A DNA stretch of 45,414 bases from a virus. The translations under genes were made by a program, and so were the position numbers. The notes below the pieces were generated by a model. It saw only the letters and a list, made by a program, of their open reading frames with translations, made no database searches and was not told where the DNA came from. The stretch is taken from positions 1 through 45,414 of IMG/VR virus record IMGVR_UViG_3300031351_000002; one strand, written 5' to 3'. Positions 2,674-33,780 of the stretch are shown in pieces (position 1 is the first letter of the stretch; each line of letters starts with the position of its first letter).

Positions 2674-2720
2674 CTACTGGACACTACCGGAGTAATGCCC
2701 AGGGTGTAAAGGACTAACGA
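2674..2720 (-). repeat. Intergenic hairpin repeat, copy B
   Basis: Second copy of the element at 1525-1570, with the first 30 bases identical. The hairpin is 2677-2687 with 2692-2702. It follows the LPD29 gene and includes its stop codon, and lies just upstream of the structured-RNA candidate on the leftward transcript. Confidence 0.75.
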
Positions 2721-3295
2721 TTCAACACAATCCTTTCAAATGTCTGCTCTAGCGTTTCGTTAGTATCAAAGTCCCATACCATTTGACGGGCTAGGCTGTC
2801 CACCCACTGATTACCGAACCTATCGGCGGGTGGCTCGCCCTCGCACCTGCAATATTGCCGTATATGAGCTGCTGCCCGTTGTTCTCGCTCTTCAAAGTTA
2901 GTTATATGGCGGTTGCAGAAAACATAATTAGCACCAAAGTGTACCATTTCGGCGTCAGGGTGCGGCGCATCACTAACAAAGCCGGGAATTGAACCGCCAT
3001 AACTTTCGGGCCTATATGCGAGGTCAGCCTCACCGTTCGGCAATAGCCAGCTATCCTGACAAGTCGCAAGGTCATTCATGCCGTCAAAACTTCTACCCTC
3101 GAATCCCTTGACTACTGCCTCCACTACTTTGGCGCGCTCGCCATCCGTCCAAGATATGTCTATTGAGGCGCCGCCACTGTAAGATTTAGACCTAACTGAG
3201 AATTTAGTATCGGGGAAGTGCTTAGCCAATGCTTGTCTAACTAGCTTGGCCGTCTCTGCAACCGTGAGATAGCGTGTCTGTGTCTCTGTAATCAT
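2714..3295 (-). CDS. LPD29-domain protein, 193 aa
   Basis: The N-terminal part (TRYLTVAETAKLVRQAL, FSVRSKSYSGGASIDISW, then TDGERAKVVEAVV) matches my memory of LPD29, a domain named from large polyvalent phage and plasmid proteins and also found alone. Its biochemical role is not established. The C-terminal half holds HFGANYVFCNRHITNFEER and CRCEGEPP, which could bind metal. The ATG at 3295 has GGGAGGGAATAAAGGAA in front; a GTG at 3334 lies in the repeated leader. It is the largest protein of the leftward operon. Confidence 0.75.
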   Translation of the reverse strand: MITETQTRYLTVAETAKLVRQALAKHFPDTKFSVRSKSYSGGASIDISWTDGERAKVVEAVVKGFEGRSFDGMNDLATCQDSWLLPNGEADLAYRPESYGGSIPGFVSDAPHPDAEMVHFGANYVFCNRHITNFEEREQRAAAHIRQYCRCEGEPPADRFGNQWVDSLARQMVWDFDTNETLEQTFERIVLNR

Positions 3296-3300
3296 TTCCT

Positions 3301-3340
3301 TTATTCCCTCCCTTGTTTTATTTCTCACTATCACTATATA
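3301..3340 (-). repeat. Start-associated leader, type A, best copy
   Basis: Read leftward: ATAGTGATAGTGAGAAATAA, then AACAAGGGAGGGAATAAAGG and the ATG at 3295. The first part packs TAG and TGA stops in two frames, and the upstream gene stops in it. Other copies are near 1201, 1801, 2031, 3661 and 3977, with short cores at 2519-2530 and 3483-3494. Confidence 0.8.
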
Positions 3341-3690: not shown

Positions 3691-3707
3691 GTGTTAGGCT
3701 CTTATTT

Positions 3708-3728
3708 GTGCGCCTTGCTGGGGCGCAC
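3708..3728 (-). terminator. GC-rich hairpin after the first leftward gene
   Basis: GTGCGCC (3708-3714) and GGCGCAC (3722-3728) form a perfect 7-bp stem with a 7-base loop, 12 bases past the stop of the 3740-3976 gene. There is no U tract, so it may weaken rather than end transcription, or protect an mRNA end. The same GTGCGCC/GGCGCAC stem core recurs in the terminator at 4214-4266. Confidence 0.45.
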
Positions 3729-3739
3729 CGTATAAAAGT

Positions 3740-3976
3740 CTAACTGACTATGATAATATTAGCTAAGTCAGCTCTGCTGGCGGGCACATAATCGGCACCA
3801 TATCCGACATACCATCTAGGTCTTGGGTGTCTGTCTGTGCTTGCCCTGATTGCCGTCTCATGCTGTGTACCATCGTAACAATGATTGCCGATGGCTACTA
3901 CCCTTGTGACTGTTTCCTCTGTGCTGTTGTCGGGGTTGCGATACCCATGTACTGCGATGCCGATGTAGTTTTCCAT
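3740..3976 (-). CDS. First gene of the leftward operon, 78 aa, function unknown
   Basis: Starts MENYIGIAVHGYRNPDN; a small, beta-rich protein with GNHCYDGTQHETAIRAS in the middle and YVGYGADYVPASRADLAN near the end. No recognised domain. The ATG at 3976 follows GGGAGGTAAAAGAA; a GTG at 4006 lies in the repeated leader. It is promoter-proximal, about 60 bases from the predicted start of transcription, the usual place for an early takeover gene or an antiterminator, although no such motif is visible. Confidence 0.7.
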   Translation of the reverse strand: MENYIGIAVHGYRNPDNSTEETVTRVVAIGNHCYDGTQHETAIRASTDRHPRPRWYVGYGADYVPASRADLANIIIVS

Positions 3977-4010
3977 TTCTTTTACCTCCCTTGTTTTATT
4001 TCTCACTATA
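3977..4010 (-). repeat. Start-associated leader, type A, copy (before the first leftward gene)
   Basis: Read leftward: ATAGTGAGAAATAAAACAAG then GGAGGTAAAAGAA and the ATG at 3976. Shorter at its 5' end than the copy at 3301-3340. Confidence 0.7.
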
Positions 4011-4039
4011 CTACTATTTACTACTGTTTTACTCTCACA

Positions 4040-4074
4040 TTTACAATTGTAAACTTTTTATTACAACTTGTCAA
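4040..4074 (-). promoter_or_regulatory. Leftward early promoter (PL-like) with overlapping operator
   Basis: Read leftward: TTGACA (4069-4074), a 17-base spacer and TACAAT (4046-4051). The -10 lies inside the perfect 14-bp palindrome TTTACAATTGTAAA (4040-4053). The Cro promoter at 35495-35523 has the same layout and shares TTGACAAGTTG at the -35. I infer that the CI-like repressor and the Cro-like protein bind here. Confidence 0.8.
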
Positions 4075-4171
4075 GTCCCCACTAGCTTCGAAGGTAAATA
4101 TTTATTTTATAGCTGATTTTAGCGAGGTTTAGCTTTGAAGTGCGCCAAGTTAAAATATTTATCAGAGGGTA

Positions 4172-4200
4172 TTGACAAGTAGCAAAGCGAGGTTTATACT
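4172..4200 (+). promoter_or_regulatory. Late promoter (pR'-like)
   Basis: TTGACA (4172-4177), a 17-base spacer and TATACT (4195-4200). Transcription should start near 4207 and meets a terminator at once (4214-4266). The spacer contains AGCGAGGTTTA (4186-4196), which also occurs at 4121-4131. No other good promoter was seen ahead of the terminase and structural genes. Confidence 0.7.
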
Positions 4201-4213
4201 TAGCAATAGGGGC

Positions 4214-4266
4214 AAGGTGCGCCCTCAGCTCAGGATACCGGCAACCTGGGCGCACTTTCTTTTCTC
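4214..4266 (+). terminator. Terminator directly after the late promoter (tR'-like)
   Basis: AAGGTGCGCCC (4214-4224) and GGGCGCACTTT (4248-4258) form an 11-bp stem (one G-U) with a 23-base loop, followed by a T-rich tail (4256-4264). It would end transcripts about 55 bases long from the promoter at 4172-4200. Confidence 0.7.
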
Positions 4267-4294
4267 ATCTCTTATTTTCTCCTCCTTTTTATAA

Positions 4295-4327
4295 GCCCCG
4301 GCTAGACCTTGAGCAAGTCACCGGGGC
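4295..4327. other. Inverted repeat in the late leader
   Basis: GCCCCGG (4295-4301) and CCGGGGC (4321-4327) are perfectly complementary around 19 bases. No T tract follows. It could be a second attenuator hairpin or a protein site. Confidence 0.4.
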
Positions 4328-4423
4328 ACAGTTATTTAAGCGGCCAGCTATCCTGACGAGGGGCAGGCAAACAGGCTTAAAACGGACTTAGGGTTTCACC
4401 TGAGCACTGGCTGGCATTTATCA

Positions 4424-4511
4424 TAGTCTACCGACACTCTCTTTACACTCTCTCGACACGTTGTCGGTACTCTCCCCATACCCTCTTGATACTCTCCCCA
4501 CACCCTGGTAA
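4424..4511. repeat. Eight tandem 11-bp repeats upstream of the small terminase gene
   Basis: Units start at 4424, 4435, 4446, 4457, 4468, 4479, 4490 and 4501, with consensus YACTCTCYYYA. The units at 4468 and 4490 are identical (TACTCTCCCCA); those at 4424 and 4457 are the most degenerate. The 11-bp period keeps every copy on about the same face of the helix, as expected of a site for an oligomeric protein. Position suggests the terminase recognition site (pac or cos) or a late regulator site. Confidence 0.7.
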
Positions 4512-4536
4512 TAGGCTTTTCTACTTCTATACTCTT

Positions 4537-4561
4537 ATTCTCTTTATATATTCTCTTTATA
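4537..4561. repeat. Direct repeat of 12 bp next to the 11-bp array
   Basis: ATTCTCTTTATA occurs at 4537-4548 and again at 4550-4561. It extends the pyrimidine-rich repeat region toward the small terminase gene and may be part of the same site. Confidence 0.6.
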
Positions 4562-4692
4562 GAGGGGGTTGTTAGGGGGAGAACTCTTCCACCGGTTTAT
4601 TAGCGTCTTAATGACCTAGTTACCAAGTACCGATGAGGGAAGGGAAGGGGGGACTATAGGGGGGATAGGATAGGACGAGGTTATATATCAAT

Positions 4693-5280
4693 ATGTCAGA
4701 AATAGGAAATAGGAAATCTTCAGCGAAGGAAAGGGCTTTCGTTATTGAATTTGTCCTTTGTCGGAATGGTACGCAGGCAGCTATTAAGGCCAAATATTCT
4801 AAAAAGAGCGCCACTGCCATAGCTTCTGAACTATTGAGAAAACCTTCTATTCGGGCTGCAATAGAAAAATTAGAGGCTGAAATAGCCTCGCCAAAGATTA
4901 TGAACATCCGGGAGCGCCAGGAGCGTCTATCGGAAATTGGCCGAGGGCGGCTCACTGACTTTGTGAAAAATGGAAAGGTGGAACTCGAAGAGGATACACC
5001 TAATGCCGGTGCAGCCAAAGAATTCTATCGAAGAGACGGCTTTGATAGGGACGGCAATCCTGTGGCCACCAGTTCGATTAAACTGACTGATCCGATAGAA
5101 GCTATCAGGGAATTAAACAAGCTCGGGGGAGATTATCCACCCAGCAGGCATCTGGTAGGTCACCGGGTAGTTTTTGAGGTAATACATATTGACAGAGGAA
5201 AGCGAGAGGAAATTGAAGAGGGGAAAGCTCCCGCGATCGCGGGGAGTTTTAAAGAGCTGGAAGAGGGAGAGGAAAATTGA
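4693..5280 (+). CDS. terS: Terminase small subunit, 195 aa
   Basis: The N-terminal 60 residues (ERAFVIEFVLCRNGTQAAIK, then YSKKSATAIASELLRKPSI) match the helix-turn-helix of the Terminase_2 family, in which Asn-x-Thr-Gln-Ala-Ala, Tyr-Ser and Leu-Leu-x-Lys-Pro are typical. A coiled region follows (about 59-80), then an oligomerisation and C-terminal part ending in an acidic tail. The subunit recognises packaging-start DNA and feeds the large subunit. It heads the late operon, 181 bp past the 11-bp repeats that are its best candidate binding site. Unusually, the large subunit is 4.3 kb downstream. The ribosome binding site is weak (GAGG 12-15 bases upstream). Confidence 0.85.
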   Translation: MSEIGNRKSSAKERAFVIEFVLCRNGTQAAIKAKYSKKSATAIASELLRKPSIRAAIEKLEAEIASPKIMNIRERQERLSEIGRGRLTDFVKNGKVELEEDTPNAGAAKEFYRRDGFDRDGNPVATSSIKLTDPIEAIRELNKLGGDYPPSRHLVGHRVVFEVIHIDRGKREEIEEGKAPAIAGSFKELEEGEEN

Positions 5281-5633
5281 TGAAGCACTATCCCCGCCTC
5301 TAACCTGGCAGTATATACGGGACCAGTATAAACTCTGCTTCCCACGGGCCTAGCCGGCAGGATACCACAGGCTCAATAACCACATAATACTCATAGTGCG
5401 CCCCACCTCTAGTCGTGCAATGTGACAGTTGTCTACCTGGCATAGCCAATTCAGTGGATTTGGACAGCACTTGACCACCGATGTCGCCCCAGTGGGTGGG
5501 TTATTGATTGGTCAGGTCTCCCTCTGGGAGCGGGGGGGGGTGCTCCCGAAATCGGGCTGGCGGACTCTTGTGGGGAATACTCCAGAGTTAAATCTGTGAT
5601 TTTGAAAACTCAAAGTCTCAAAGGGAGGAGAAA
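5281..5633 (+). other. Gap of 353 bp without a gene
   Basis: I find no convincing reading frame. A hairpin GGGAGC/GCTCCC (5526-5531, 5542-5547) encloses a run of nine G (5532-5540), which is prone to length error. A short open stretch near 5303-5352 (LTWQYIRDQYKLCFPRA) ends at a TAG and has no start. The region could be leader RNA or the remains of a gene. Confidence 0.4.
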
Positions 5634-5837
5634 TTGAACAAAGGATTATTAGTTACGCTTGCCGTAATCAGTGAAATGGCGTCTCATGTTGGTGGGTTTT
5701 TCCGTGATGCAATCGGTTATACCGAGGTAGGCAGTAGCACGCCATCAATATCCGGGCGTGGCGGAAGTCATCGGTTTCGCCCCCATGCGCCGAACGATGG
5801 CAGATGGCACATGAAGTATCACAGGAGCAGGCATTAG
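5634..5837 (+). CDS. Hypothetical small protein, 67 aa
   Basis: TTG start placed 7 bases after a strong GGGAGGAG site. Residues 4-17 (GLLVTLAVISEMAS) are weakly hydrophobic. The rest is Gly/Ser/Arg/His-rich and basic, ending KYHRSRH. It may be a small DNA-binding or membrane-edge peptide; function unknown. It stands alone after the 353-bp gap and 10 bp before the next small gene. Confidence 0.55.
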   Translation: MNKGLLVTLAVISEMASHVGGFFRDAIGYTEVGSSTPSISGRGGSHRFRPHAPNDGRWHMKYHRSRH

Positions 5838-5847
5838 GGGGATAGAG

Positions 5848-5982
5848 ATGAACGGTAGGATAGTTAAGAAGATTAGGAAGTACAGCAAGCGGAACTGGAT
5901 TGACTATTATATTTACTTAAGGGGGATGTCGTTTTGGCAGCGGTTAAGGTTTAGTTGGCGATTGATGAGAAAGAAGTTTTGA
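5848..5982 (+). CDS. Small basic protein, 44 aa
   Basis: MNGRIVKKIRKYSKRNWIDY, then YIYLRGMSFWQRL and a basic tail. Amphipathic and highly basic, with aromatic residues at intervals; it may associate with membrane or nucleic acid. The ribosome binding site AGGGGGATAGAG is well placed. Function unknown. Confidence 0.55.
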   Translation: MNGRIVKKIRKYSKRNWIDYYIYLRGMSFWQRLRFSWRLMRKKF

Positions 5983-6073
5983 AAAAGTAAATTCTATTCT
6001 TAACATAAAGTTCTTCACCCCAAGATTAGCTTTTAAATAACCTCAATTTTAATTTTTTAGAAGGAGGCTACAA

Positions 6074-6232
6074 ATGTCAAAAGTACATCCAGTCAAAATC
6101 ATTCACGAGGTTCAGCATCCACCGGGAGCTTGGAAGGGGAAGACAACTATTATTGCTGAAAATGTCGACCCGAAGGAAGCTGCCAAAGAAATCCAGGCCG
6201 TTATTGAGATGATAGTAATTTATGAGAAGTAA
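6074..6232 (+). CDS. Small hypothetical protein, 52 aa
   Basis: MSKVHPVKIIHEVQHPPGAW, then a strand (KTTIIAENVDP) and a helix (KEAAKEIQAVIEMIV). This looks like a compact alpha/beta fold. A strong AAGGAGG site lies 7 bases ahead of the ATG. It is 9 bp before the next gene, so the two are probably co-translated. Function unknown. Confidence 0.7.
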   Translation: MSKVHPVKIIHEVQHPPGAWKGKTTIIAENVDPKEAAKEIQAVIEMIVIYEK

Positions 6233-6241
6233 GGAGAAGAA

Positions 6242-6532
6242 ATGCCTGGCATAGAAGAGAAAAGGAAGCAGATAAGGGAAGGGGTTAATGACATACTCAA
6301 GCGGTATGGTAACTATGCGGATGGCTACGATGCTGATGGAGATGAACTTGATATTGATGGTGCGCTTGGGGCAATCTTCTCCTGTCTCCATTCTGAGGAT
6401 GTAGTGATAAAGGTAGACAAGGAGTTACCCGCGCCACATAAATCATACTCTTTAGGGGAGGGTTACAAGATAGTTCAGCAAGATATGCTCGATGCTGGCT
6501 ATGTAGCAACTGAACCACTAACTGAGGCTTAA
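6242..6532 (+). CDS. Paralogue A of a small acidic family, 96 aa
   Basis: Begins MPGIEEKRKQIREGVNDIL and ends GYVATEPLTEA. The protein from 35849-36136 shares the start (IEEKR..IR.G), the central YLHS/CLHS..VVI segment and the ending GYVAT.PL, so the two are paralogues in different operons. The 5' DNA is nearly identical (ATAGAAGAGAAAAGGAA), which suggests recent duplication or recombination. Function unknown. Confidence 0.75.
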   Translation: MPGIEEKRKQIREGVNDILKRYGNYADGYDADGDELDIDGALGAIFSCLHSEDVVIKVDKELPAPHKSYSLGEGYKIVQQDMLDAGYVATEPLTEA

Positions 6533-6702
6533 CAGAAAGGTGCAATCCATCTGCCCGTTAGGATGCCTGTGAATATATTGAATAAACAGGGGTAAGATTT
6601 GGATGACAGCGAGCGGTGATGATGAGAAGTCCGTATCCTTAACCTTAAGGGGTCAATGCTTAGCTAACTCCTGGCAACTATACCATTGATTAAGGAGGGG
6701 TG

Positions 6703-6831
6703 ATGAACGAAACTGCGCCACTACAAAGGCAGGATATAACACCATTATATTCCAAGCTGGATACCATTATTGAGCTACTGGAGGAAATAAGAGATAAATT
6801 AGCAGTTGAGCCACTGGCAAATAAAGAATGA
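6703..6831 (+). CDS. Small coiled-coil protein, 42 aa
   Basis: MNETAPLQRQDITPLYSKLD followed by the helix TIIELLEEIRDKLAVEP. A GGAGGGG site precedes the ATG. Its stop overlaps the ATG of the next gene (ATGA), and both end with the motif EPL. The preceding 170 bp contain only frames of 10-28 codons. Confidence 0.6.
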   Translation: MNETAPLQRQDITPLYSKLDTIIELLEEIRDKLAVEPLANKE

Positions 6832-7007
6832 TTAAATATATGGCTTTTGAGGAACAGGAGGAGTTTTGGCGCAGGCATCGAGAATCTAAGGAGCAAATAC
6901 AAAGAGACTTTGACAAGTTGCCACGCAAAAAGAAGCTGAAGATTATAAAGGAGATGGAGGCTAACCGTAAAGCAATGCGGAATGCTGAGCCACTGGTAAA
7001 GGATTGA
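6828..7007 (+). CDS. Charged helical protein, 59 aa
   Basis: MIKYMAFEEQEEFWRRHRES, then a long Lys/Glu-rich helix (KLPRKKKLKIIKEMEANRK). Coupled to the gene before it by an ATGA overlap. The last 18 bases (6990-7007) are identical to the end of the 35849-36136 gene, a trace of recombination between the two regions. Function unknown. Confidence 0.65.
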   Translation: MIKYMAFEEQEEFWRRHRESKEQIQRDFDKLPRKKKLKIIKEMEANRKAMRNAEPLVKD

Positions 7008-7058
7008 ATTATGAAAGTCAAGATACTCTGTTGCTTGGAGAAATAAAGGGGGTGAGTT

Positions 7059-7886
7059 TTGGAAGTCGTACAGGTAACCATACCTTATAGACGGCCAGAC
7101 GTTTTCCATTTCTACCCGTTCGGAGACATACATAGCGGTTCAACAGAATGCGTTGAAGACAAGATTAGAGACAAGGTTTTAGAGTGCGCCAACAGGAAGA
7201 ATGCCTATGCTCTGGGCATGGGCGATTACAGCGATTGCATCACCAAGAATGATAGCAGATTCAACATTGACGGGTTAGCTCCATGGGTTGAGAAATCCAA
7301 TATCGTGGAGAGCCAGCGGGATTGGCTGACCAATAAGAAGACTGGCTTGCTTGTCCCACTCGTAGAAGAGGGCAAACTGATTGCTCTCGGCACGGGCAAC
7401 CACGAAGAAGAAATACACATGAGGCACGACAACGATATTGCTCGTAATTTGTGCAAAGACCTCAATGTTCCCTACGGCGGATATGCTTACTTCCTGATTG
7501 TCAACTTCGTCAGGCATACGACTACCCGCCAGTTCATCTTCCACTGCTGGCATGGTGCTGGCTCAGCCCAGACAGAGGGTGCGAGATTGATGAGGCTGAT
7601 GAGGCTGGTCAATGATGTTCAGGCTGATATTTACCTCATGGGTCACCTTCACGCTATCACCATCCACACCCCGGATAGACTGGTCTGCAGCAGGCAAGGC
7701 AGAGTCCGCAGTGATATATTGATTGCCGCGATAACTGGCTCATGGCTCAAGACATACCCGCAACCACACAAGGGAGAGATGCTTAGTCCTACTTACGGCG
7801 AGAAAAAAGGATATAAGCCGAGCAGAATAGGCTGCCCCGTAATTCACATTGAGCCTGATGAGAATAAGGCGACTATTGAGGTCTGA
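7059..7886 (+). CDS. Calcineurin-like metallophosphoesterase, 275 aa
   Basis: The family motifs appear in order: GDIHSG (residues 22-27), GMGDYSD (about 53-59), GTGNHEE (about 110-116), CWHGAG (about 162-167) and MGHLHA (about 193-198). These supply the Asp, His and Asn ligands of a two-metal phosphoesterase. Such phage enzymes may act on nucleotides, RNA ends or DNA; the substrate cannot be read here. A TTG start is used, with GGGGGTGAG before it. The next gene cluster starts immediately (a 14-codon frame at 7886-7930, then the 7927-8163 gene). Confidence 0.85.
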   Translation: MEVVQVTIPYRRPDVFHFYPFGDIHSGSTECVEDKIRDKVLECANRKNAYALGMGDYSDCITKNDSRFNIDGLAPWVEKSNIVESQRDWLTNKKTGLLVPLVEEGKLIALGTGNHEEEIHMRHDNDIARNLCKDLNVPYGGYAYFLIVNFVRHTTTRQFIFHCWHGAGSAQTEGARLMRLMRLVNDVQADIYLMGHLHAITIHTPDRLVCSRQGRVRSDILIAAITGSWLKTYPQPHKGEMLSPTYGEKKGYKPSRIGCPVIHIEPDENKATIEV

Positions 7887-7926
7887 TGAAATTCGGATAC
7901 TGGGTCGGCTGGCTGGGAGGGAGTAA

Positions 7927-8163
7927 ATGATGATTTGGCAGGACATTGTATTAGCAATTGGCTTATACTCTCTAGGCTTTGCTTTATTCCCCTCTATATT
8001 CGGAAAGCATAAGCCTGCACGATGGAGCTGTCTTCTTTCAGCAGTGATTCTCATTGTTTTCACGTTTACTTTTGCTACTCTAGAACTCTGGCAGACTGTT
8101 TACGCTGAGGCGTTTTCCGCTCTCTGCTGGATAATATTGCTATTTCAAAGAAGGGAAGCGTGA
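7927..8163 (+). CDS. Small membrane protein, 78 aa
   Basis: Three hydrophobic stretches: IVLAIGLYSLGFALFPSIF (residues 7-25), LLSAVILIVFTFTFATLEL (36-54) and EAFSALCWIILLF (60-73), with the positive loop GKHKPARW between the first two. It overlaps the gene before by ATGA and the next by 4 bp. Possible holin or inner-membrane modifier; nothing decides which. Confidence 0.7.
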   Translation: MMIWQDIVLAIGLYSLGFALFPSIFGKHKPARWSCLLSAVILIVFTFTFATLELWQTVYAEAFSALCWIILLFQRREA

Positions 8164-8459
8164 AAGTTATTTATGTAGCTGGTAAGTATCGGGCTGATTC
8201 AGAGAGCGGAGTATTTGAAAATATAATCCACTCTAGGGCAGTAGCTCAAAGATTGTGGCACGAGGGATGGGCGGTAATATGCCCGCACATGAACAGTGCT
8301 TTTATGGGACTAAATTTAATCTTCCTTGACGGTGACCTGGAGATACTCAAAAGGTGTGATGCTATTTATATGCTCAAGGACTGGGAGCAGTCTGTTGGCG
8401 CTACCAAAGAACTTGAAATAGCAAAGAAATGCGGGCTGAAAGTCTATTTTGAGGAATAG
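8160..8459 (+). CDS. DUF4406 / nucleoside 2-deoxyribosyltransferase-like protein, 99 aa
   Basis: Starts KVIYVAGKYRADSES, the nucleotide-binding strand and loop of this family, and ends with CDAIYMLKDWEQSVGATKE, where the Asp, Trp-x-x-Ser and Gly-Ala-x-x-Glu match the active-site segment. Relatives cleave or transfer deoxyribose on nucleosides, or hydrolyse nucleotides. A GTG start overlaps the preceding stop. Probably helps remodel the nucleotide pool, with the methyltransferase and phosphoesterase nearby. Confidence 0.75.
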   Translation: MKVIYVAGKYRADSESGVFENIIHSRAVAQRLWHEGWAVICPHMNSAFMGLNLIFLDGDLEILKRCDAIYMLKDWEQSVGATKELEIAKKCGLKVYFEE

Positions 8460-8512
8460 ATTAACCTTATCGCCAACCTAGTTATCTGGGTATTTCTGAT
8501 TCTGGGGTGAAA

Positions 8513-9139
8513 GTGAAACCTTACTATCAAGATGAGTGGGTAACGATATATCACGGGGATTGCAGAGAGATATTACCCCAGTTGGATGTTAAGGTGGACT
8601 TGGTGCTTACCGACCCGCCGTATGGCATTAATAAAGCTGACTGGGATATTGAATTTAATCTTCCGCCTGATATGAATACTGATATATTAGGGTTGATGCC
8701 AGGCGTTTGGAATTTGTTGAAATGTCCGCCTAAATTACAGGCTTATGACCATTGGTTAAATTTCAGGTGGCAAATCATAGCACATCTAGTAAATGGTATG
8801 ACGCATGGAGCGATAGGCTGGGGTAATTATATTCCTTGCCTTGTATATGTAAAAGAGGGTGTTATCTTAAACCACAAAGGCTCTGATTGTAAAGATTTTG
8901 TTGTCGGGGCAGAATATAAGCCAGCGCATCCCTCCCCTAAGCCTGAGCGTGTTATTGCATGGTTTGTTGAAAGGCTATCTAATTCGGGCAATCTAATCTT
9001 AGACCCCTTCCTCGGTTCTGGAACAACCGCTTATTGTGCTAAGAAGTTAAACCGCAAGTGCATAGGCATAGAGATAGAGGAGAAGTATTGCGAAATCGCC
9101 GCTAAAAGATGTAGTCAGGGCGTATTTGATTTGGGGTAA
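8513..9139 (+). CDS. DNA methyltransferase (N6-adenine or N4-cytosine), about 208 aa
   Basis: DPPYG near residue 34 is the catalytic motif IV, and LILDPFLGSGTTAYCAKK near residue 165 is the S-adenosylmethionine site (motif I), giving the IV-then-I order of the beta class. HPSPKP, just before motif I, is also typical. The central recognition part is short. No restriction enzyme adjoins it, so protection from host restriction or regulation is likely. I prefer the GTG at 8513 to the GTG at 8507 because GGGGTGA is better spaced and the protein then begins KPYYQDEWVTIYHGDC as relatives do. Confidence 0.9.
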   Translation: MKPYYQDEWVTIYHGDCREILPQLDVKVDLVLTDPPYGINKADWDIEFNLPPDMNTDILGLMPGVWNLLKCPPKLQAYDHWLNFRWQIIAHLVNGMTHGAIGWGNYIPCLVYVKEGVILNHKGSDCKDFVVGAEYKPAHPSPKPERVIAWFVERLSNSGNLILDPFLGSGTTAYCAKKLNRKCIGIEIEEKYCEIAAKRCSQGVFDLG

Positions 9140-9141
9140 GA

Positions 9142-9336
9142 ATGGGAAAGAAGAAACTGACTGACAAAGAACTTAAAGACCTGCTTGGCAGTGCCATAAA
9201 CGGGCTTGAAGTAGCCCGAATACTCCTCAATTTAGAACCCGAAAAGTTTGAGCAGAAGGGATATATCCATACCGTTCTTGAAGATGCCTATGAGAAAGTC
9301 CAGAAGATAGCCCTAGAGTATTGCGCTTATGATTGA
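9142..9336 (+). CDS. Small helical protein, 64 aa
   Basis: MGKKKLTDKELKDLLGSAIN, then LEVARILLNLEPEKFEQKGY and a final helix. Entirely helical, charged, no cysteine motif. It starts 2 bp after the methyltransferase stop with GGGGTAAG upstream. Function unknown. Confidence 0.65.
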   Translation: MGKKKLTDKELKDLLGSAINGLEVARILLNLEPEKFEQKGYIHTVLEDAYEKVQKIALEYCAYD

Positions 9337-9421
9337 CTACCGATATACCATTGGCGAATTTCTCTGCTGTGCCTTCTTCTGCCATGTTGTTCACAAAATC
9401 CTTGAGATGTTGGGGCTTTGA
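9329..9421 (+). CDS. Short Cys-rich hydrophobic peptide, 30 aa
   Basis: MIDYRYTIGEFLCCAFFCHV, then VHKILEMLGL. One amphipathic or membrane-inserting helix with three cysteines. It overlaps the gene before and ends 3 bp before the next ATG. Coding by context only. Confidence 0.4.
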   Translation: MIDYRYTIGEFLCCAFFCHVVHKILEMLGL

Positions 9422-9424
9422 ACT

Positions 9425-9628
9425 ATGTTAAAGCGAATGACGGACACAATCTATGGAATGCTCTATCGCAATGGTCGCTATGACGAAGGAAACTGGATGG
9501 TGCATTTCTTTGCCACCAAGCGAGAGAGGGAATCAGCCTACAAGCAGGCAGGTCAGCATCCAGGTATGGAACTGAGAAGATTTGAATTTAGGCTGGAGCA
9601 AGTAGTGGGGGAAGAGATTGACCACTGA
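9425..9628 (+). CDS. Hypothetical protein upstream of large terminase, 67 aa
   Basis: MLKRMTDTIYGMLYRNGRYD, EGNWMVHFFATKRERESAYKQ and a basic/acidic C-terminus. It overlaps the large terminase start by 11 bp, implying coupled translation. Function unknown; small genes at this place sometimes encode HNH or packaging accessories, but no such motif is present. Confidence 0.6.
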   Translation: MLKRMTDTIYGMLYRNGRYDEGNWMVHFFATKRERESAYKQAGQHPGMELRRFEFRLEQVVGEEIDH

Positions 9629-11027
9629 TATTGATGGCTCTCCTGTCACCAGAGTGCAGATAGAAGTCCCCAAGCCTCATTCTCTCAAGCAAGAGGAATT
9701 TGTCAGGGCTACCGAACTCAGGCAGGTAATCAAGGCAGGCAGACGGTTTGGCAAGACGGTAGGGGCAGCGATAAAGGCCCTGGAGGCGTTTCTGGGTGTC
9801 TGTCCCGCTTGCGGGGGAGAAGGCTGCTTGCGCTGCGAGATGACAGGTAAGGTAACACCAAAGCGAGTTCTCTACGCTGCGCCGACTTCAGAACAGGTAG
9901 GCAAGTTCTGGTACGAGATAACTTTAGCACTCAACAGTCCCGTTGAAAGTGGGTATCTTAAGAAAGATGAGACGGAGAAATTCATCGAGGTTCCGGGTAC
10001 GGAGCAGAGAATAAAAGCAAAGACAGCGTGGAATGCTAATACTCTCAGGGGCGACTATGCCGACCTGCTGCTACTTGAAGAGTTCCAGCTTATGAACGAG
10101 GATACCTGGGATGAGGTGGGCCAGCCGATGCTGCTTGATAACAACGGCACGGCGGTATTCGTTTATACCCCACCCTCTTTGAAATCAGAGGGAGTCAGCA
10201 AGGCGAGAGACCCCAGGCACGCCTCTAAGATGTACCAGAAGGCGCTGACCGATACGACTGGAAGGTGGAGAACATTCCACTTCACCAGCTTCGATAATCC
10301 GACTCTCAGCGCAGAAGCATTGAAAGAAATCGGGGAAGGAGATATGTCCCTCGATGCCTACCGCCGTGAAATACTGGCGGAGGATGATGAGATTGAAACA
10401 TCGTGGCTCGTCTACGGCAAGTTCGATGAGGCACTCTGCAAGATAAAAAGATTTGCCATACCTGAAACGTGGCCGATACGGTCTGGACACGACTTCGGCT
10501 CGGCCAATCCTGCTGCCCTTTTCGTTGCTGAAGTTAAATTGCCGATACCGGATGGCGCACCCAGGCATCTCAGGTATGGGGACTATGTGGCTTTTAGTGA
10601 GTATTCCCCGGGGGCTGGCTTCTCAACGGCACAGCACGTTGACGAGTTCAAGAGAATTACCAGAGGGCTTGATGTGCAGATGTCCACTGGTGGGAATGTG
10701 ACCACTGAAGATGAGATAAGGCAGGGGTATCAGAGTCAGGGCTGGATGATAACAGCGCCGACAATCACGAGGGTAAACGCCCAGATAGATAGAGTTCTCG
10801 GGATTATGGAGCAGAAAAAGCTCTATATCTTTGAAGATATGTTCAGGATACTGGCGCAGATAGCCAACTGTATGTGGGTTCTTGACGCCGAGAAACAGCC
10901 GACCAACAAGATAAGGGACGAAAGCAAGTATCATTTACTCGCCTGTCTGCGGTATCTGGGAACTATTCTCAGGATGGATACAGCCATAAGCGAGAAGCGG
11001 AAGTCAAAGCATTCAATGACTCTATGA
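9618..11027 (+). CDS. terL: Terminase large subunit, 469 aa
   Basis: The packaging motor and nuclease. The Walker A motif is AGRRFGKT (40-47), and the Walker B motif with its catalytic Glu is DLLLLEEF (149-156). The C-terminal nuclease begins at about residue 290 with SGHDFGSANP (first acidic residue), and further acids follow in TTEDEI and DESKYHLL. Odd feature: CPACGGEGCLRC (62-73), a CxxCxGxGCxxC zinc-knuckle pattern between Walker A and the next strand. A TTG start is used with GGGGGAAGAG ahead. The portal gene follows by 8 bp. Confidence 0.9.
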   Translation: MTTDIDGSPVTRVQIEVPKPHSLKQEEFVRATELRQVIKAGRRFGKTVGAAIKALEAFLGVCPACGGEGCLRCEMTGKVTPKRVLYAAPTSEQVGKFWYEITLALNSPVESGYLKKDETEKFIEVPGTEQRIKAKTAWNANTLRGDYADLLLLEEFQLMNEDTWDEVGQPMLLDNNGTAVFVYTPPSLKSEGVSKARDPRHASKMYQKALTDTTGRWRTFHFTSFDNPTLSAEALKEIGEGDMSLDAYRREILAEDDEIETSWLVYGKFDEALCKIKRFAIPETWPIRSGHDFGSANPAALFVAEVKLPIPDGAPRHLRYGDYVAFSEYSPGAGFSTAQHVDEFKRITRGLDVQMSTGGNVTTEDEIRQGYQSQGWMITAPTITRVNAQIDRVLGIMEQKKLYIFEDMFRILAQIANCMWVLDAEKQPTNKIRDESKYHLLACLRYLGTILRMDTAISEKRKSKHSMTL

Positions 11028-13072: not shown

Positions 13073-16000
13073 ATGCCTAGAGGCACAACGGACACCATAC
13101 AACAGAATATCGAAGATATGAGAAGCAAACTTAAAAAGCTGCGTGAGCCTTTAAGCCCCCGTATTACCAAAATCAAGACCAGACTGGCAGAGGGCAAGAC
13201 CGTGTTCTTGTCTCCCAGCACAGCTTCAGAAATCGGGCTGCCCGCCAAGTTTCCTTCTGACTGGACATTGAAAATAACTCCTGGTCATAACGGCGATGAG
13301 CCAGCATTTTCGTATCATTCACCTGAAGGAACGGAGTTTGCCGAGCAGGATATCAGGACTACGCCCGAAGGCGAATTTCTTTCTGCTTCTGAAATGGAAG
13401 AGATAAGAAGTGGGCGGTTTCAAGCCTATAATCCTGTGACTGATACATTCCAGCCCACTACAAGAGCATTTGTTGAAGCCAGAGAGGAAGCTGGGCTTAC
13501 CCCAGAGGAACTGCGAGAATTAGCAGGTGGTCGGTTTCAACCAACTCCAACCCCTTCAGCCGAAACAGAATTATCAGAGTTATTTCAAAGGGTTTATCCA
13601 GATTTTGATTTTGGCGATGAGACAGGCAGAGTAGTCCTCAGCACAATGATGCAGTGGGCAGATGAGGACCCGAATGCATTCTTGCAGGATATTTTAGCAA
13701 AGGGCAGAAATCCCGATACGGAGGCACTACTCAGGGCATTTGAAGCCCCGGACGAATTGATTGATGAAATATTTACTCCTGTCGTCCCAGAAGAAATCAG
13801 TATTCCCAAGACTGGAGTATTCCCCATTGACGGCATCAGGCAGCTAGTAACTATTGACCAGAATACGGGTATGGCTTATGACCGGACAGGGAATAATGTC
13901 GGCTCGCTTGACCCGATAAAGAGGGAGATTACCACTACACCACCCGAGGGCAAGGCAAAGGATATTTGGGATGCCGCCGTCCTGAGCGCAGCCAGTATGT
14001 GGCACAGGACGAAGCAGTATTTCGTTTCCAGTCTCCCCAATCTACTGTTTCGTGATATGACTGATTTTGAAAGGGAGATACAGGGAGACGAGTGGGCTGA
14101 TATAACCGATGCCCGCAATGAGGCATTGAGGGATAAATTCAGGCAGGCATACGCCAGAAATAATGCCGAGTTTGAAGAATGGGTAGAAAAGCGTCCTGAA
14201 TTACAGCCGAAAAGGGAATATCAGGAAGGGGTGATGGAACACCCCGAACTGCTTAAAGACCCTTATTATTATGCCTACGAGATAGCCAGTGCCGCACCAT
14301 TTATGGCTGGCGTGATGGCGACAGCTATTGTAACTACGGCGGTTACTGGAAATCCATTAGTAGGTTTGACGGCTGGTATGTTGGTGGCTACGCCTTCGCA
14401 GACACAGGATGTTTATGAGGCACTATTAGAGAACGGAGCTACCGAAGAGCAGGCGACAGTCATAGCCAACCCTATCGGTGCTGTTATATCGGCGGTTGAA
14501 GTTCTCGGTGACATACCCTTCTTCAAAGCAGTAGCCCCGCAGCTATTCAAGTTCTTCAGGAAAGAGGCAACTGAAGAGATAGCCAAGCAGACGATGAAAG
14601 GTTTGCTCAAGAGAGGAATTACTACTGCAACACAGGTGGAGATAGCCGAGACGCTGGAAGAGGTAGTTCAAGGCGCATTACAAAACGCTGCGGTTAAGAT
14701 AGTCAATGAGCATCAGGATATATTCGAGGGACTGGCCGATACCGCAATCAGGGCAGCCATAGCCTCTGCACCATTTGCGCTATTTGGCGGTGGTGCTTCC
14801 ATCAGGACAGATGTGATGGAGAAGTTTGAGGAAAGTATGCCCGAAGTGGTAGAGGGGATAAAGAAACTCGCCAAAGGAGAACGTGGTGCATTAGGATTTC
14901 TCGAAGAGAAACCCGGGGTCAAGGGTATCTTATCGCTAGATGAAATATCTCAACTGGAGACTAGAATATCTTTAGACCTCATACGGAAGGATGAAGCAGC
15001 GGAGATTGAGAGATTAACCGAGAAAATCAGGGAAGAGGGTCTAAAAGAGCCGATTACGATAATGGTCAGAGAAGATGGCTCCCGTGTAGTTTGGGACGGT
15101 ATGCATAGATTGATAGCGGCACAAACTCTGGGGATAAAGAATATCCCAGTTAAGTATATAGGTGAAGGGGTTACACCACCTGTTACCCCAGAGGTTACAA
15201 CAATACCCAAAGAAGGTAAGATAATACCCGAAAAGGGTAAGCCAGAAGCACCGCCAACAGAAGTAAAACCTGCACCAGAAATAGAAGCAGCCAAAACTCA
15301 AGCTCCACAGGTAACTAAAGAGATTGAAACAGTAATATCCGACCTCCAAGCGCAGGTAGAGAAAACCAGCGAGGAAGTCAAAGGCAAGCGTGGAGAAGCT
15401 GCCAGAATAAGCAGGGAAGCCCTTAAAGGGCTGGAAAGAGAAGTTGCCTACGCCCAGAAAACCCTTGAGACTTTCAGGGAACAGGTGAATGTTCCCGATG
15501 CTGTCAAGTTGCGACAAACAATCGTAGCGATGGCAAGATTTAAGGGTATCGGCAAAACTCAGTTGAGAGATGCCATTAAAAGTGTCGCTGGACAGAGACA
15601 TCTTCGTAATGTCGCCTCACCACAGCTTCTTGAAATCCTTGAGAAAGTCAGGGAAGCGAGACCATTAAAAATAGGTTACGAGAAAGTAGTAACTCTCAAG
15701 ACCGAAGCTAAAATCCAGTCGTTGAAAGAAAGCCTTATCTCCAGCCGCCAGATGACCGAGGAGATATATAACCACATCAAGGAACGCCTTAATTTAAGAA
15801 CCGACAGATACGAACACGCCCAGAAGTTCATTACCGAATCCGATGCCAAAGAACTAATACGGGCGATGAATGATGAGGTAGTTCTTGCCAGATGGGATAT
15901 CAAGGTTAAGGATGCTCTGGCTAAAAACCCCGCCATCAAAGGAGTAAGAGACGGTCTTAATGACAGGGGAATGGCGGGAACTGGTGTTGAGTTCAATGGC

Positions 16001-19000
16001 GAGCCGATAAAGGTAAGTCGTGGCACTGAACTTTACTCAATGCGCTACTATGTGCTCAACCTCCAGAAGAAGCTGGCTGCTCCAATCTATGATACATGGC
16101 AGAAGATAAATCAGGCTCACCTCGTTGCCAGAGACAGGCACAACCAGCAGTTGCGGAGGTTGCAGGATACCACGCCGAACTTCAAAGAGGTAGCCTCTGA
16201 TGAGAAAGCCTTAAAGAGAATTGAAGACTATATCGCCAGCAAGCACAATCTGGCTAAAATCAAAGCACCTGAGCTATCCGATGATGAAATGGCGATAGCC
16301 ACTGAGCTTGAGAGGGGATACTTTGAAGCACAGAACGATGTCAGGTTTATCAGGTTCGTCAACGCCTACGCCGAGAACGAGGGCGATATTGACCTTATAA
16401 ATAAAGAGATACCAAGCGCGCCGAAAAAGGCACTCAGAAGGGCTATTGATGTCTATGAGGGCAAGGGCGCAGACGAGCTAAGGAAGTTCACCGATACCCA
16501 GAAGTGGGGCGTTATTGAGAAGGGTTATGACCCTCGTTCCTTCATCAAACCGATACTCTACTTCCACGCACCGAGAGAAACTACCTTTGCCAAAGGTCTC
16601 CTGCGGACCAGAAGTGGCGTGGAGTATCAGGCTGATGAAACCAACATCATCCAGAGGTATTCCAGACACCAGAAGCAGTTGATAGCCTTGCAGGAGATGT
16701 CATCGCTGATAAGGGCTTTCGGCAGGCTTTATGCCGAACACGCTCACAAACTTGCTCCTTCAGCGCAGAGAGATGTTTCTAAAGTATTGAGTCGTGGTCT
16801 TAATGAGATGAAAGGCTACCGTGAAGATGCGGGGGCGATTATTCACGCCATAGAGCGTCTTTATGGTCAGGTGGCAGCAGTTGTCTTCTGGAGACCAGAC
16901 CTCGTAGCCAGAAACAAGTTCCAGAACTTTGCCTTCAATCCCGACTACTGGGCGGGAAGGTTCGCTGACCCACGGAATAAACCTATTTCAGAAGCAAGAC
17001 GCAGGTGGTTTGAAGTGTTTGTCAGTCAAGAGAGGGTATTTCAGTTTGAATATCTGCTCTATGGTGAGAAGCCACTACCGGGCTTCGGTCTGCTGACCAG
17101 ACTTGCGAGGAGAACAAGCCTTTATCCCTGGTCGGATAAGACAAACAGGGCTGAGGCTTTTATGGTCAGGATTAACCGAGTTGACAGGGCATTAGACGCT
17201 TATGATAAACACGGCGATGTCCAGAGATTGATTGACGATAGCGGTCTCAACGAGTTTGAACCGAGACAGCAGGCGGAAGCGTTAGAATATCTGTCAATGG
17301 ACTCCGTTGACTACGGCATAGATGGTATGGAGGCGGTATCGGGTAGGGAAGCGTTTGCTCTCTACATTACCCAGCAACTTGTCAACAATGTTCACTTCCT
17401 CTATGACAGGGCACAGAGAGCACCAGCCGAGATGGGAGCTACCGGCAAGACACTCGGCAATATCCTCGTCTTTAACCGCAGTTGGGGTGAGAGGTTTATC
17501 CTTCAGGGAAGGAAGCTAGACCCAAAAACTAAAGCAACTATAAAGGAACGGCTAAAAGCTGTTCAGGTCATAGTCGGCGTAGTAGTTGCTGGTCTTTTAG
17601 CTGGTGAAGTCTACAAGAAGATAACGGGTAAGGAGCATAATCCTTATAATCCGCTTAACATCATAACGTGGACACCTGGCGGTCTGGCTCTGGGTGTTAC
17701 CGAAGATATATCAAACACTATCTACCTGATAACTCAGGCGGTTCAGGGAGATAAAAGTGCTTTCGGCTCATTGCCTGGAGTAATCGCTGGCGTGGCTACA
17801 TTGACACTACCGTTCTACAAGAACGCTGTGCAGGCTCTTGATGCCGTAACCGATATGAAGAATGTTGATGTCTATGCCCTCCGCAAGATACGGGAGATGA
17901 TAGACGATGAATATGAGGTCAGGGGCGGGACTCACGAGGTAGAGAGAACCCTGCTTGAGAAATTGCAGAGGGCGATATTCAGCTTCAAAGACCAGCCCGT
18001 AACACCGCAGGAGAAGATAGACGAAGCGGAGACTCAACTGGGGTGGACGATTGATGTAGGCGATGTGCCCTTCACGCTGGAAGAGCCTGACATCTACAAT
18101 ATGCGGAAGCTCAACAGCGATATGTCAAGGATACTGGGGAATGTCAAGCCAGAGGATATTACCAGAGAGAATAAATATTCTGACCTTGCTATGGCTTGGA
18201 AGGAAAAAGAGGGCTACGAAGCTATCTGGAATACCCTCCCCAATAAGAAACTCTATGAGATAACCGAACTACCAGAAGAACTTGAGAAGTGGGCGAGCAG
18301 GCATAAGAGGGAGTTATCTTTAATCACCAAATATCAGAAACTTGAAGGGGCAGAAGCAAAGGAGTTTCTCGAAGAGCATCCTGAGCTAAAAGTCAATCCC
18401 GCAATCGAGTGGCTCAAGCAGTTCCCTATCGCCAATGCCAGATTAGCCCTCTGGGGTCAGGCCAAGATATACAGCAAGGAAGCCTATGACGAGTTCAACA
18501 GGCTGGTGAAAGAACTTGATGTTCCCGATGATGCCATACCAGAACTGACACTACCGCCGAAAGGCTCGGTGGAAAACTACTTCAAGTATCAGGAGACCGG
18601 CGGAGAACTGGGCTATAACTCGTGGGAAGTCCAGTTACTTATGGCACAGGACGATGATTTAAGGCAGTTCCTTGAGCGACAACCCATTGAAACGCCCGTC
18701 AGAAGCCTTGAGTTGAAGATTAAGGGCAGGGAACTGGAAGAGGATAGCCAGGAGTTCAGGGACAACGAAAGGCGCATAGAGGCCATTGAGAACGGTGCTC
18801 CTGACGAGATTGAGAGTAAATGGGTAGAGCGTGGTCATATAGTTGATGAGTTTACGGCGGGTAGCTCAGAGGCTATGGTCTGGTTGCTAGACCATAAAAA
18901 CGCTTTTGACTGGGCTATTGACAACGGGCTACTCACCGATGACGGTTCTGACTGGAATGAGGAAAGGCTACGCCTGAATGTTGAGAAAAACAAACTGGAA

Positions 19001-19696
19001 GAAGGCACATCTGAATTCGCTGAAGTTGATACCAAGCTCAAAGCCTTTGAAAGAGGACTGCCATCAGAGCAAATTGATAATTTCGCTATTTATAACAGCT
19101 TTCCAGAGGCAGGATATAGGCGGGAACGCTTCTTAATGGAGCATCCCGTGTTCGCTGAAGCTATGGGCTTGCAAGTCCCTGAGAAAGTCCCCTCCGAGAA
19201 ATACGACATACTGCTTGAGAAAGAGGACAGGACACCCGAAGACGAACTCCGAATGGACGCTTACAAAATCTATGTGCCTGATAAATATATTGAGGACTAT
19301 GTAACCTACCATACCAGCAAGAAACCCGATAACTGGGAAGAGAAAAACGGCACCGACCTCTACTATGCAGACGATTGGTGGATGATGGAGCACCAGGGCT
19401 TCTACAAGGAAGTCTATCTCGGCATACTGGGCAATCAGCGCAAAGACTATCGCACCGTGCCGACCAGAGAGGTATTCAACAAGTACCTCCGCTACCTTGA
19501 GCTGGAAGGGAAGAGGCGCAGTCAATTCAGGCTAGATAACCTCGACCTTGATAAATGGCTGGTCTTAAAATTCGGCTACACGCCGATTGAAGAGCAAGAA
19601 ATTAAGCCTGAGAAAAAAGAGCCAGAGAAGCCTGAAGGCACTATTGAAGAGTCACTGGAAGATATGAGAGAGAAACTATCCAGTCTAATGCGATAA
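13073..19696 (+). CDS. Giant virion/polyvalent protein, 2207 aa
   Basis: The largest gene, about 15 percent of the genome, in the MuF-like slot between portal and scaffold. Visible parts, in order: an N-terminal helix and Pro-rich segment; hydrophobic stretches at about 405-440 and 556-576; a ParB/sulfiredoxin-like domain at about 628-697 (KEPITIMVREDGSRVVWDGM, then HRLIAAQTLG); a Pro-rich linker and coiled coil to about 840; a long alpha-helical middle; hydrophobic segments near 1497-1516 and 1563-1580; and a C-terminal helical array repeating a motif like FLEEHPELK (also FLERQPIE, FLMEHPVFA). Phage polyvalent proteins with ParB-like domains are known to be injected with DNA. I infer an ejected internal protein that may also cross membrane. 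No MuF or lysozyme motif is visible. Confidence 0.75.
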   Translation: MPRGTTDTIQQNIEDMRSKLKKLREPLSPRITKIKTRLAEGKTVFLSPSTASEIGLPAKFPSDWTLKITPGHNGDEPAFSYHSPEGTEFAEQDIRTTPEGEFLSASEMEEIRSGRFQAYNPVTDTFQPTTRAFVEAREEAGLTPEELRELAGGRFQPTPTPSAETELSELFQRVYPDFDFGDETGRVVLSTMMQWADEDPNAFLQDILAKGRNPDTEALLRAFEAPDELIDEIFTPVVPEEISIPKTGVFPIDGIRQLVTIDQNTGMAYDRTGNNVGSLDPIKREITTTPPEGKAKDIWDAAVLSAASMWHRTKQYFVSSLPNLLFRDMTDFEREIQGDEWADITDARNEALRDKFRQAYARNNAEFEEWVEKRPELQPKREYQEGVMEHPELLKDPYYYAYEIASAAPFMAGVMATAIVTTAVTGNPLVGLTAGMLVATPSQTQDVYEALLENGATEEQATVIANPIGAVISAVEVLGDIPFFKAVAPQLFKFFRKEATEEIAKQTMKGLLKRGITTATQVEIAETLEEVVQGALQNAAVKIVNEHQDIFEGLADTAIRAAIASAPFALFGGGASIRTDVMEKFEESMPEVVEGIKKLAKGERGALGFLEEKPGVKGILSLDEISQLETRISLDLIRKDEAAEIERLTEKIREEGLKEPITIMVREDGSRVVWDGMHRLIAAQTLGIKNIPVKYIGEGVTPPVTPEVTTIPKEGKIIPEKGKPEAPPTEVKPAPEIEAAKTQAPQVTKEIETVISDLQAQVEKTSEEVKGKRGEAARISREALKGLEREVAYAQKTLETFREQVNVPDAVKLRQTIVAMARFKGIGKTQLRDAIKSVAGQRHLRNVASPQLLEILEKVREARPLKIGYEKVVTLKTEAKIQSLKESLISSRQMTEEIYNHIKERLNLRTDRYEHAQKFITESDAKELIRAMNDEVVLARWDIKVKDALAKNPAIKGVRDGLNDRGMAGTGVEFNGEPIKVSRGTELYSMRYYVLNLQKKLAAPIYDTWQKINQAHLVARDRHNQQLRRLQDTTPNFKEVASDEKALKRIEDYIASKHNLAKIKAPELSDDEMAIATELERGYFEAQNDVRFIRFVNAYAENEGDIDLINKEIPSAPKKALRRAIDVYEGKGADELRKFTDTQKWGVIEKGYDPRSFIKPILYFHAPRETTFAKGLLRTRSGVEYQADETNIIQRYSRHQKQLIALQEMSSLIRAFGRLYAEHAHKLAPSAQRDVSKVLSRGLNEMKGYREDAGAIIHAIERLYGQVAAVVFWRPDLVARNKFQNFAFNPDYWAGRFADPRNKPISEARRRWFEVFVSQERVFQFEYLLYGEKPLPGFGLLTRLARRTSLYPWSDKTNRAEAFMVRINRVDRALDAYDKHGDVQRLIDDSGLNEFEPRQQAEALEYLSMDSVDYGIDGMEAVSGREAFALYITQQLVNNVHFLYDRAQRAPAEMGATGKTLGNILVFNRSWGERFILQGRKLDPKTKATIKERLKAVQVIVGVVVAGLLAGEVYKKITGKEHNPYNPLNIITWTPGGLALGVTEDISNTIYLITQAVQGDKSAFGSLPGVIAGVATLTLPFYKNAVQALDAVTDMKNVDVYALRKIREMIDDEYEVRGGTHEVERTLLEKLQRAIFSFKDQPVTPQEKIDEAETQLGWTIDVGDVPFTLEEPDIYNMRKLNSDMSRILGNVKPEDITRENKYSDLAMAWKEKEGYEAIWNTLPNKKLYEITELPEELEKWASRHKRELSLITKYQKLEGAEAKEFLEEHPELKVNPAIEWLKQFPIANARLALWGQAKIYSKEAYDEFNRLVKELDVPDDAIPELTLPPKGSVENYFKYQETGGELGYNSWEVQLLMAQDDDLRQFLERQPIETPVRSLELKIKGRELEEDSQEFRDNERRIEAIENGAPDEIESKWVERGHIVDEFTAGSSEAMVWLLDHKNAFDWAIDNGLLTDDGSDWNEERLRLNVEKNKLEEGTSEFAEVDTKLKAFERGLPSEQIDNFAIYNSFPEAGYRRERFLMEHPVFAEAMGLQVPEKVPSEKYDILLEKEDRTPEDELRMDAYKIYVPDKYIEDYVTYHTSKKPDNWEEKNGTDLYYADDWWMMEHQGFYKEVYLGILGNQRKDYRTVPTREVFNKYLRYLELEGKRRSQFRLDNLDLDKWLVLKFGYTPIEEQEIKPEKKEPEKPEGTIEESLEDMREKLSSLMR

Positions 19697-33747: not shown

Positions 33748-33780
33748 CCCCTCTCCTTCAAAGGAGAGGGGCTTTCTTTT
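33748..33780 (+). terminator. Late operon terminator
   Basis: CCCCTCTCCT (33748-33757) and AGGAGAGGGG (33762-33771) pair perfectly with loop TCAA, followed by CTTTCTTTT. A textbook rho-independent terminator for the rightward late transcript. Its T tract runs into the stop codon of the convergent integrase gene. Confidence 0.9.

Follow-up and report, generated by a model that had tools for sequence, protein, structure and literature searches.

A probable pR'-tR'-type late switch with a 21Q-like candidate antiterminator in a temperate tailed phage

The IMG/VR record IMGVR_UViG_3300031351_000002 was analysed over its entire length of 45,414 bp, and this whole stretch is called the window here. 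Since an integrase, a CI-like repressor, a DnaC-like helicase loader, TerS and TerL are encoded in it, the virus is regarded as a temperate tailed phage (Table 1). As the record carries no end repeats, its circularity is presumed. Promoter-like sites are found at the switches where they would be expected, namely at 35495 (+) and 35434 (-) around the repressor, and at 4172 (+) and 4074 (-) in the divergent region ahead of the late genes. A terminator scan allowing long loops gave only three good terminator-like sites in the intergenic parts of the window: 4217-4255 (+), one that closes the late operon, and one at the convergence of the early and leftward operons. The rightward early operon, which starts from the 35495 promoter, carries the gene for a candidate antiterminator near its end. 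An earlier reading of the same DNA, made from the sequence only, had placed this gene at the end of the operon. It does lie near the end, but it is the second-last gene, with 44515-44886 coming after it, and a leftward gene block of ~4.9 kb that the earlier reading left unmentioned separates it from the late promoter on a circular map.

The late promoter is composed of TTGACA (4172-4177), a spacer of 17 bp (4178-4194) and TATACT (4195-4200), and it is the sole plus-strand site in the 45 kb with at least 11 of 12 consensus matches. The late transcript probably starts at A4205 or A4206. In the hairpin located downstream, GTGCGCCC (4217-4224) pairs with GGGCGCAC (4248-4255) to form a GC-rich core of 8 bp, an AAG/TTT extension including one G.U pair brings the stem to 11 pairs (4214-4224/4248-4258), and TTTCTTTTCTC comes directly after it. 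With 23 nt, the loop is longer than is usual in terminators. Because it exceeds 8 nt, the standard terminator scan missed this hairpin, and it was detected by the long-loop scan. The fold energy of 4207-4275 is -23.2 kcal/mol (z = -2.1 against shuffles). The T-tract lies ~55 nt past the -10 element, and an RNA starting at A4205 or A4206 and terminated there would be about 52-60 nt long. From 4266 to the start of TerS at 4693 there are 427 bp. The promoter, the 11-bp GC-rich hairpin with its T-rich tail and the distance of some 430 bases to the first late gene had all been pointed out in the sequence-only reading, and all were confirmed. A leader peptide of 24 codons, starting with GTG at 4217, was also weighed but not retained, since it would overlap the terminator and had no support of any kind. 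Within the late leader, the stretch 4408-4520 has a C content of 0.35 and a G content of 0.14 and contains short repeats, TACTCTCCCC. It is possibly a Rho-loading region, which would also demand antitermination, or a packaging site near terS. Another feature of this area is the 7-mer GTGCGCC/GGCGCAC, of which five copies lie within ~550 bp and ten in the whole window. Apart from 4217-4255, it occurs at 3708-3728, in a second hairpin that is downstream of a leftward gene, and at 4140-4146, in a half-site ~26 bp upstream of the -35 element; no T-run comes after either of these two. The repeats may be a protein site or a means of RNA-RNA pairing.

Table 1. Features of the window discussed in the text.
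Feature	Position	Strand	Remarks
Late promoter (pR'-like), TTGACA-17-TATACT	4172-4200	+	11/12 sigma-70 consensus
Promoter spacer, candidate Q-binding element AGTAGCAAAGCGAGGTT	4178-4194	+	Direct repeat; AGCGAGGTTTA also at 4121-4131
Initial transcribed region (ITR) motif AGCAATAGGGGCAAGG, putative pause/loading element	4202-4217	+	Common to L015 (AGCAATAGGGCAAGG) right past the -10
ITR hairpin AGGGGC-AAGGTGC-GCCCT	4208-4225	+	-7.8 kcal/mol, leader alone
Intrinsic terminator (tR'-like)	4214-4264	+	Stem 4214-4224/4248-4258, U-rich tail to 4264; folding and scan
Untranslated late leader	4265-4692	+	No coding gene found
TerS, first late gene	4693-5280	+	PF03592 E 1.6e-23; phrog_51 E 1.3e-24
TerL, late operon	9618-11027	+	phrog_2 E 1.3e-28
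Terminator, late operon end	33748-33771	+	Scan allowing long loops
Integrase	33779-34720	-	
CI-like repressor	34759-35400	-	
Early-operon promoter, TTGACA-17-TACACT	35495-35523	+	Between CI-like repressor and early genes
DnaC-like helicase loader	40144-41040		
Candidate antiterminator, 144 aa, C-terminal half modelled as sigma-region-4-like	44169-44603	+	Family alignments, hhalign, structure models
Terminator	44907-44868	-	Where early and leftward operons converge

When the region 3700-5000, TerS, TerL, the portal and the candidate antiterminator were used as direct queries, nothing close was found in phage records or viral contigs. Relatives were reached only by scanning viral contigs with a TerL profile made from the TerL of the window and that of a Methanosarcina virus, the intein-like insert being omitted. 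On the TerL-related contigs, a profile of the candidate antiterminator made from the window and L009 only detected members in L010, L006, L015 and, weakly, L067. Two more profile scans added L093-L096, L099-L102 and L109, and the family thus counts 15 members including the window. Because of the kinship between L009 and L010 and among L094, L099, L100 and L101, these correspond to ~10 independent lineages, not fifteen. A script was used to find promoters with a perfect TTGACA that lie past the family gene on the same strand and have an intrinsic terminator no more than 200 nt behind them. Such a pair was found in 11 of the 15 loci (window, L006, L009, L010, L015, L067, L093, L095, L096, L101 and L102), and the other four (L094, L099, L100 and L109) have the same layout by eye, with a non-canonical -10 element or a shorter hairpin. 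Twelve pairs were observed in total, the twelfth being a weak hairpin past the early promoter of the window at 35495, against 0.2 per set in dinucleotide shuffles of all 15 loci. The combination is therefore more than chance. On the opposite strand of the 15 loci, the script found no pair. All 15 loci have a perfect TTGACA as the -35 element, and the -10 element is close to consensus in most of them. In L006, L009, L010, L015, L067, L095 and L096 the promoter begins within ~100 bp past the family gene, while cargo genes separate the two in others, the window included. What comes after the pair is the packaging region or genes commonly found next to it (TerS, TerL, phrog_7339 exonuclease, DNA methyltransferase, HNH). 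No family gene was found in L005 and L021, which are among the closest TerL relatives with long contigs. Two observations on individual contigs can be added. In L006, a leftward gene block (5878-9290) lies between the pair and terS, so that its late transcript would traverse ~3 kb antisense. The TerL of the Methanosarcina virus MetMV (L002, 7994-10291) has an intein-like insertion of ~345 aa in the Walker A region, and past the insertion it is 53% identical to the TerL of the window, though the hosts should be far apart.

These loci also bear on a different reading, namely that the ~55-nt RNA is a regulatory sRNA ending at its own terminator and that the late genes are transcribed from another promoter. 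A strong promoter with a terminator is typical of an sRNA gene, and the first late gene begins only 427 bp further on. However, there is no further promoter with at least 10 of 12 matches between 4264 and 4693, the body of the RNA is unconserved in the relatives beyond its first 20-25 nt, and the placement past the Q-like gene and ahead of the late operon is conserved. An sRNA gene is thus very unlikely.

The 144-aa protein had been described in the sequence-only reading as small and helical, in agreement with its AlphaFold model (pLDDT 84). No match to it was found in Pfam, PHROG or NCBIfam (Pfam and PHROGs at E 0.1). phrog_79 ('anti-termination protein Q-like') matches 2 of 11 family members, with a best E of 0.011, and one member gave a weak match to sigma-70 region 4. 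The one member that was searched against 50,697 phage records had no match, nor had the family profile in a sequence search of the PDB, and no member was found in 149 genomes from the order of a Syntrophaceae MAG. The members share the motif I-x-F-x3-Q-x2-W-L-L-x-N-L-x2-L-x2-G-x-W-P ... A-E-I-x2-R-L-x3-G-x-D-G ... R-x2-R-A-L-x-Y-V-S-G. By hhalign, the family was aligned with six 21Q-type proteins over 99 collinear columns, among them the N-terminal Q..WL...L..G.W stretch. The score was 31.4 (P 2.2e-4), whereas 200 column shuffles reached 24.0 at most and the reversed profile 11.6. No similarity was seen to 80alpha RinA as a single sequence (P 0.57), or to lambda-type Q, represented by the single sequence of HK97 gp69 (P 0.68), in a test in which a single 21Q-type sequence gave P 0.003.

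Structure models of two members (pLDDT 84 and 79) have sigma region 4 domains as their best PDB matches, at Z scores of 5-7, where values below 8 are middling, and many of these domains are in sigma/anti-sigma complexes. For the second model, 6p18, the Q21 loading complex, has the top query TM-score among the matches listed by Foldseek (0.42 over 131 columns). 21Q is absent from the Foldseek list for the window model and from both VIA lists. The Foldseek E-values of the models are above 0.1, and the structural scores, being middling, are insufficient by themselves. The sigma-region-4-like C-terminal half predicted by the models would agree with the description of 21Q as a look-alike of sigma region 4/anti-sigma with a disordered loop (PMC6606751). 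AlpA, which governs a host lysis programme in Pseudomonas aeruginosa, has a 21Q-like fold without detectable 21Q sequence homology (PMC9371919). At the profile level, the 144-aa family appears to be a remote relative of 21Q, and it is not assignable to phrog_79 or a Pfam family by their thresholds. The suggestion of the sequence-only reading that this protein is the counterpart of Q gained support from the 21Q similarity and from the 14 relatives that are encoded upstream of TTGACA promoter-terminator pairs, with late or packaging genes following.

As an alternative, the 144-aa protein might bring polymerase to the late promoter as an activator, in the manner of RinA, ArpU or DUF1492 proteins, in which case the hairpin would be incidental or would end stray transcription from upstream. 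RinA occupies the same genomic place, directly upstream of terS in 80alpha, a sigma-region-4-like fold is common to such activators, and weak structural matches to DUF1492 proteins were obtained. Nevertheless, the similarity of the family is significant with 21Q and lacking with RinA, and a terminator comes after the promoter in every locus. Moreover, with perfect -35 elements throughout and mostly near-consensus -10 elements, an activator should be unnecessary. We therefore consider an activator unlikely and an antiterminator of 21Q type the preferred reading, in which the 144-aa family is likely to be the key to the switch.

For such an antiterminator, the elements around the transcription start are of interest. 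Directly past the -10 element, AGCAATAGGG(G)CAAGG and then GCCCT are found in both the window and L015, the TerL proteins of which are 52% identical. The DNA pattern TTGACA...CAATAGGG(N)CAAGG matched only the L015 contig, apart from five matches attributable to chance, which had neither a promoter nor a Q gene, and is therefore lineage-specific. Among the 11 promoters of the first subgroup, seven have a hairpin of the form GGG-N5..13-CCC within 34 nt past the -10, where shuffling gave a mean of 0.19 and a maximum of 2 (2000 shuffles). In the subgroup of L094, L099, L100 and L101, a second TATAAT/TATACT occurs 7 bp past the -10, a spacing shorter than in lambda, and TAGC...GCTA comes after this second -10-like element (with one mismatch in L094). 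The -10-like pause candidate of the window, AGCAAT, is weak and lacks the key A at position 2. In lambda, TTGACA overlapping the end of the -10 serves as a -35-like element. The same overlap is seen in L093, L096, L102 and L109, as it is in HK97 (TTTGACATCAACGATGG). The pause elements of lambda and 21 are located in the corresponding early-transcribed places (PMC6606751), and by this analogy the conserved ITR elements may be read as loading elements.

In the window, the ITR hairpin and the terminator have part of their stems in common, the 3' arm of the former overlapping the 5' arm of the latter. The two structures therefore exclude each other, and the ITR hairpin is a possible competitor of the terminator stem. 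From this overlap, and from the ITR hairpin in 7 of the 11 promoters, an RNA switch can be imagined in which the 5' hairpin (AGGGGC...GCCCT) acts as an antiterminator, in the window by competing with the terminator, or as a put-like polymerase-binding RNA, the protein being dispensable or RNA-binding. This is quite unlikely, as the relatives have both hairpins as separate rather than alternative structures, the leader hairpin, at -7.8 kcal/mol, is far less stable than the terminator (-23.2 kcal/mol), and the protein family tracks the element. In addition, the Rfam search of the window gave no match at the switch; its only match was tRNA-Gln (CTG) at 41868-41943, inside the early operon. A role of the hairpin alongside a 21Q-like antiterminator is also conceivable, although we are doubtful about it. 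The loading signal might be a short conserved 5' RNA hairpin (GGG-N-CCC or TAGC-N-GCTA) besides a sigma-dependent -10-like pause. The hairpin itself would pause polymerase, or it would be held by the protein, and in the window its competition with the terminator would couple loading to antitermination.

The place where such a protein may bind was sought in the promoters. For 21Q, lambda Q and AlpA, the binding site lies in the spacer between -35 and -10 (PMC6606751, PMC9371919). In the window, a direct repeat (4121-4131/4186-4196) touches the promoter spacer. A motif search across the loci gave no convincing Q-binding element common to all of them, and the subgroup motifs TAGCTT and CGANG are weakly enriched in the spacers. 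TTTAGCTT or TAGCTT(T) occurs in or near the late promoters at L093:7356, L096:5470, L015:5665, upstream of 5478 in L095 and at 4127-4136 of the window. One 7-mer of this kind is present in 5 of 10 lineages, against a maximum of 2-4 in shuffles, and it is a candidate binding site of the Q-like protein. It is also present upstream of terS in L021, on a contig without a Q-family gene.

Known systems can be compared with this arrangement. In phages under 21Q control (pR'21-tR'21; ST64T, SE1 and HK639), the order is the same as in the window, that is, early end, Q, promoter, terminator and late genes, and the terminator likewise lies ~45-60 nt past the -10. The same script measured from the -10 to the T-tract 60 nt in HK97 and ~45 nt in SE1 and ST64T, and HK639 has an annotated terminator in the equivalent place, 66 bp past Q. 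The protein is of similar size, with collinear weak similarity, and the models suggest a sigma-region-4-like C-terminal half and a flexible mid loop for it. The window differs from the 21Q system in that the similarity exists at the profile level only, TGAGCA repeats are absent, a GGG...CCC ITR hairpin is present, the Q gene is 5 kb off the promoter, and terminase rather than lysis genes come next. With the pR'-tR' of lambda and HK97 it shares the promoter-terminator layout, and AACAGT(TA)GGG of L109 and L096 resembles AACGATGG of HK97; unlike in these phages, there is no -35-like element in the window, and the family protein has no similarity to lambda-type Q. The description as lambda pR'-tR'-like in the sequence-only reading is thus right for the layout, which is kept in the relatives, but the geometry is of the HK97/21 type rather than that of lambda, and the protein resembles 21Q and not lambda Q. 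The AlpA promoter is also described as having a downstream intrinsic terminator, and the AlpA ABE is GGGACG (PMC9371919). In the Caulobacter gene transfer agent, the antiterminator GafZ has a helix-turn-helix of sigma-like type, and its putative binding element is located between the -35 and the -10 of a capsid-cluster promoter (PMC11150451). By description it differs in that it works with GafY and IHF, and its terminator lies past the first gene (PMC11150451).

From the computed promoter and terminator, their order and spacing, their conserved association with the family and the remote 21Q similarity, the locus is most likely a late switch of pR'-tR' type in which a new 21Q-like antiterminator operates. 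Points against this are the long terminator loop, the weak pause candidate, the want of a shared Q-binding element, the two close TerL relatives that lack the family gene, the ~5 kb between gene and promoter, the high Foldseek E-values and the missing family match of the window protein by itself. We infer the start site, protein binding, pausing, antitermination and their timing as follows. Host RNA polymerase with the housekeeping sigma factor would start constitutively at ~4205 and, unaided, would stop at 4256-4264 to give an RNA of ~55 nt. Once the early operon is expressed, its penultimate gene would make the 144-aa protein, which would bind in or next to the promoter spacer and load on polymerase held at the first transcript bases. 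Polymerase loaded in this way would pass the terminator and go on to transcribe the whole late operon, terminase genes included. The promoter-terminator architecture is a known one, but no description of the protein family or of the ITR hairpin was found in the libraries or literature searched. Most known cases of Q-type late control come from enterobacterial and pseudomonad phages. The family adjoins the same promoter-terminator pair in ~10 divergent lineages of uncultivated phages, and from this association a function that can be tested may be proposed for proteins that were unknown. It suggests that processive antitermination of the 21Q/AlpA type is wider than the model phages.

Some other features of the window are recorded here. 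TerS and TerL are separated by ~4.3 kb (5280-9618), which is an insertion region. From 5280 to 7059 there is no long ORF; past 7059 come a calcineurin-like exonuclease, which is 61% identical in L009, and a DNA methyltransferase-like ORF. A late ORF of 2207 aa (13073-19696) has a ParB-like segment near residues 625-700, which is an unusual late-gene fusion, and a perfect consensus promoter, TTGACA-16-TATAAT (19916-19889, minus strand), lies within the late operon and is directed antisense into this gene. LPD29 is a domain known from large polyvalent proteins, and it is found (E 3.4e-19) in the 206-aa protein of the leftward gene 2714-3334 (-).
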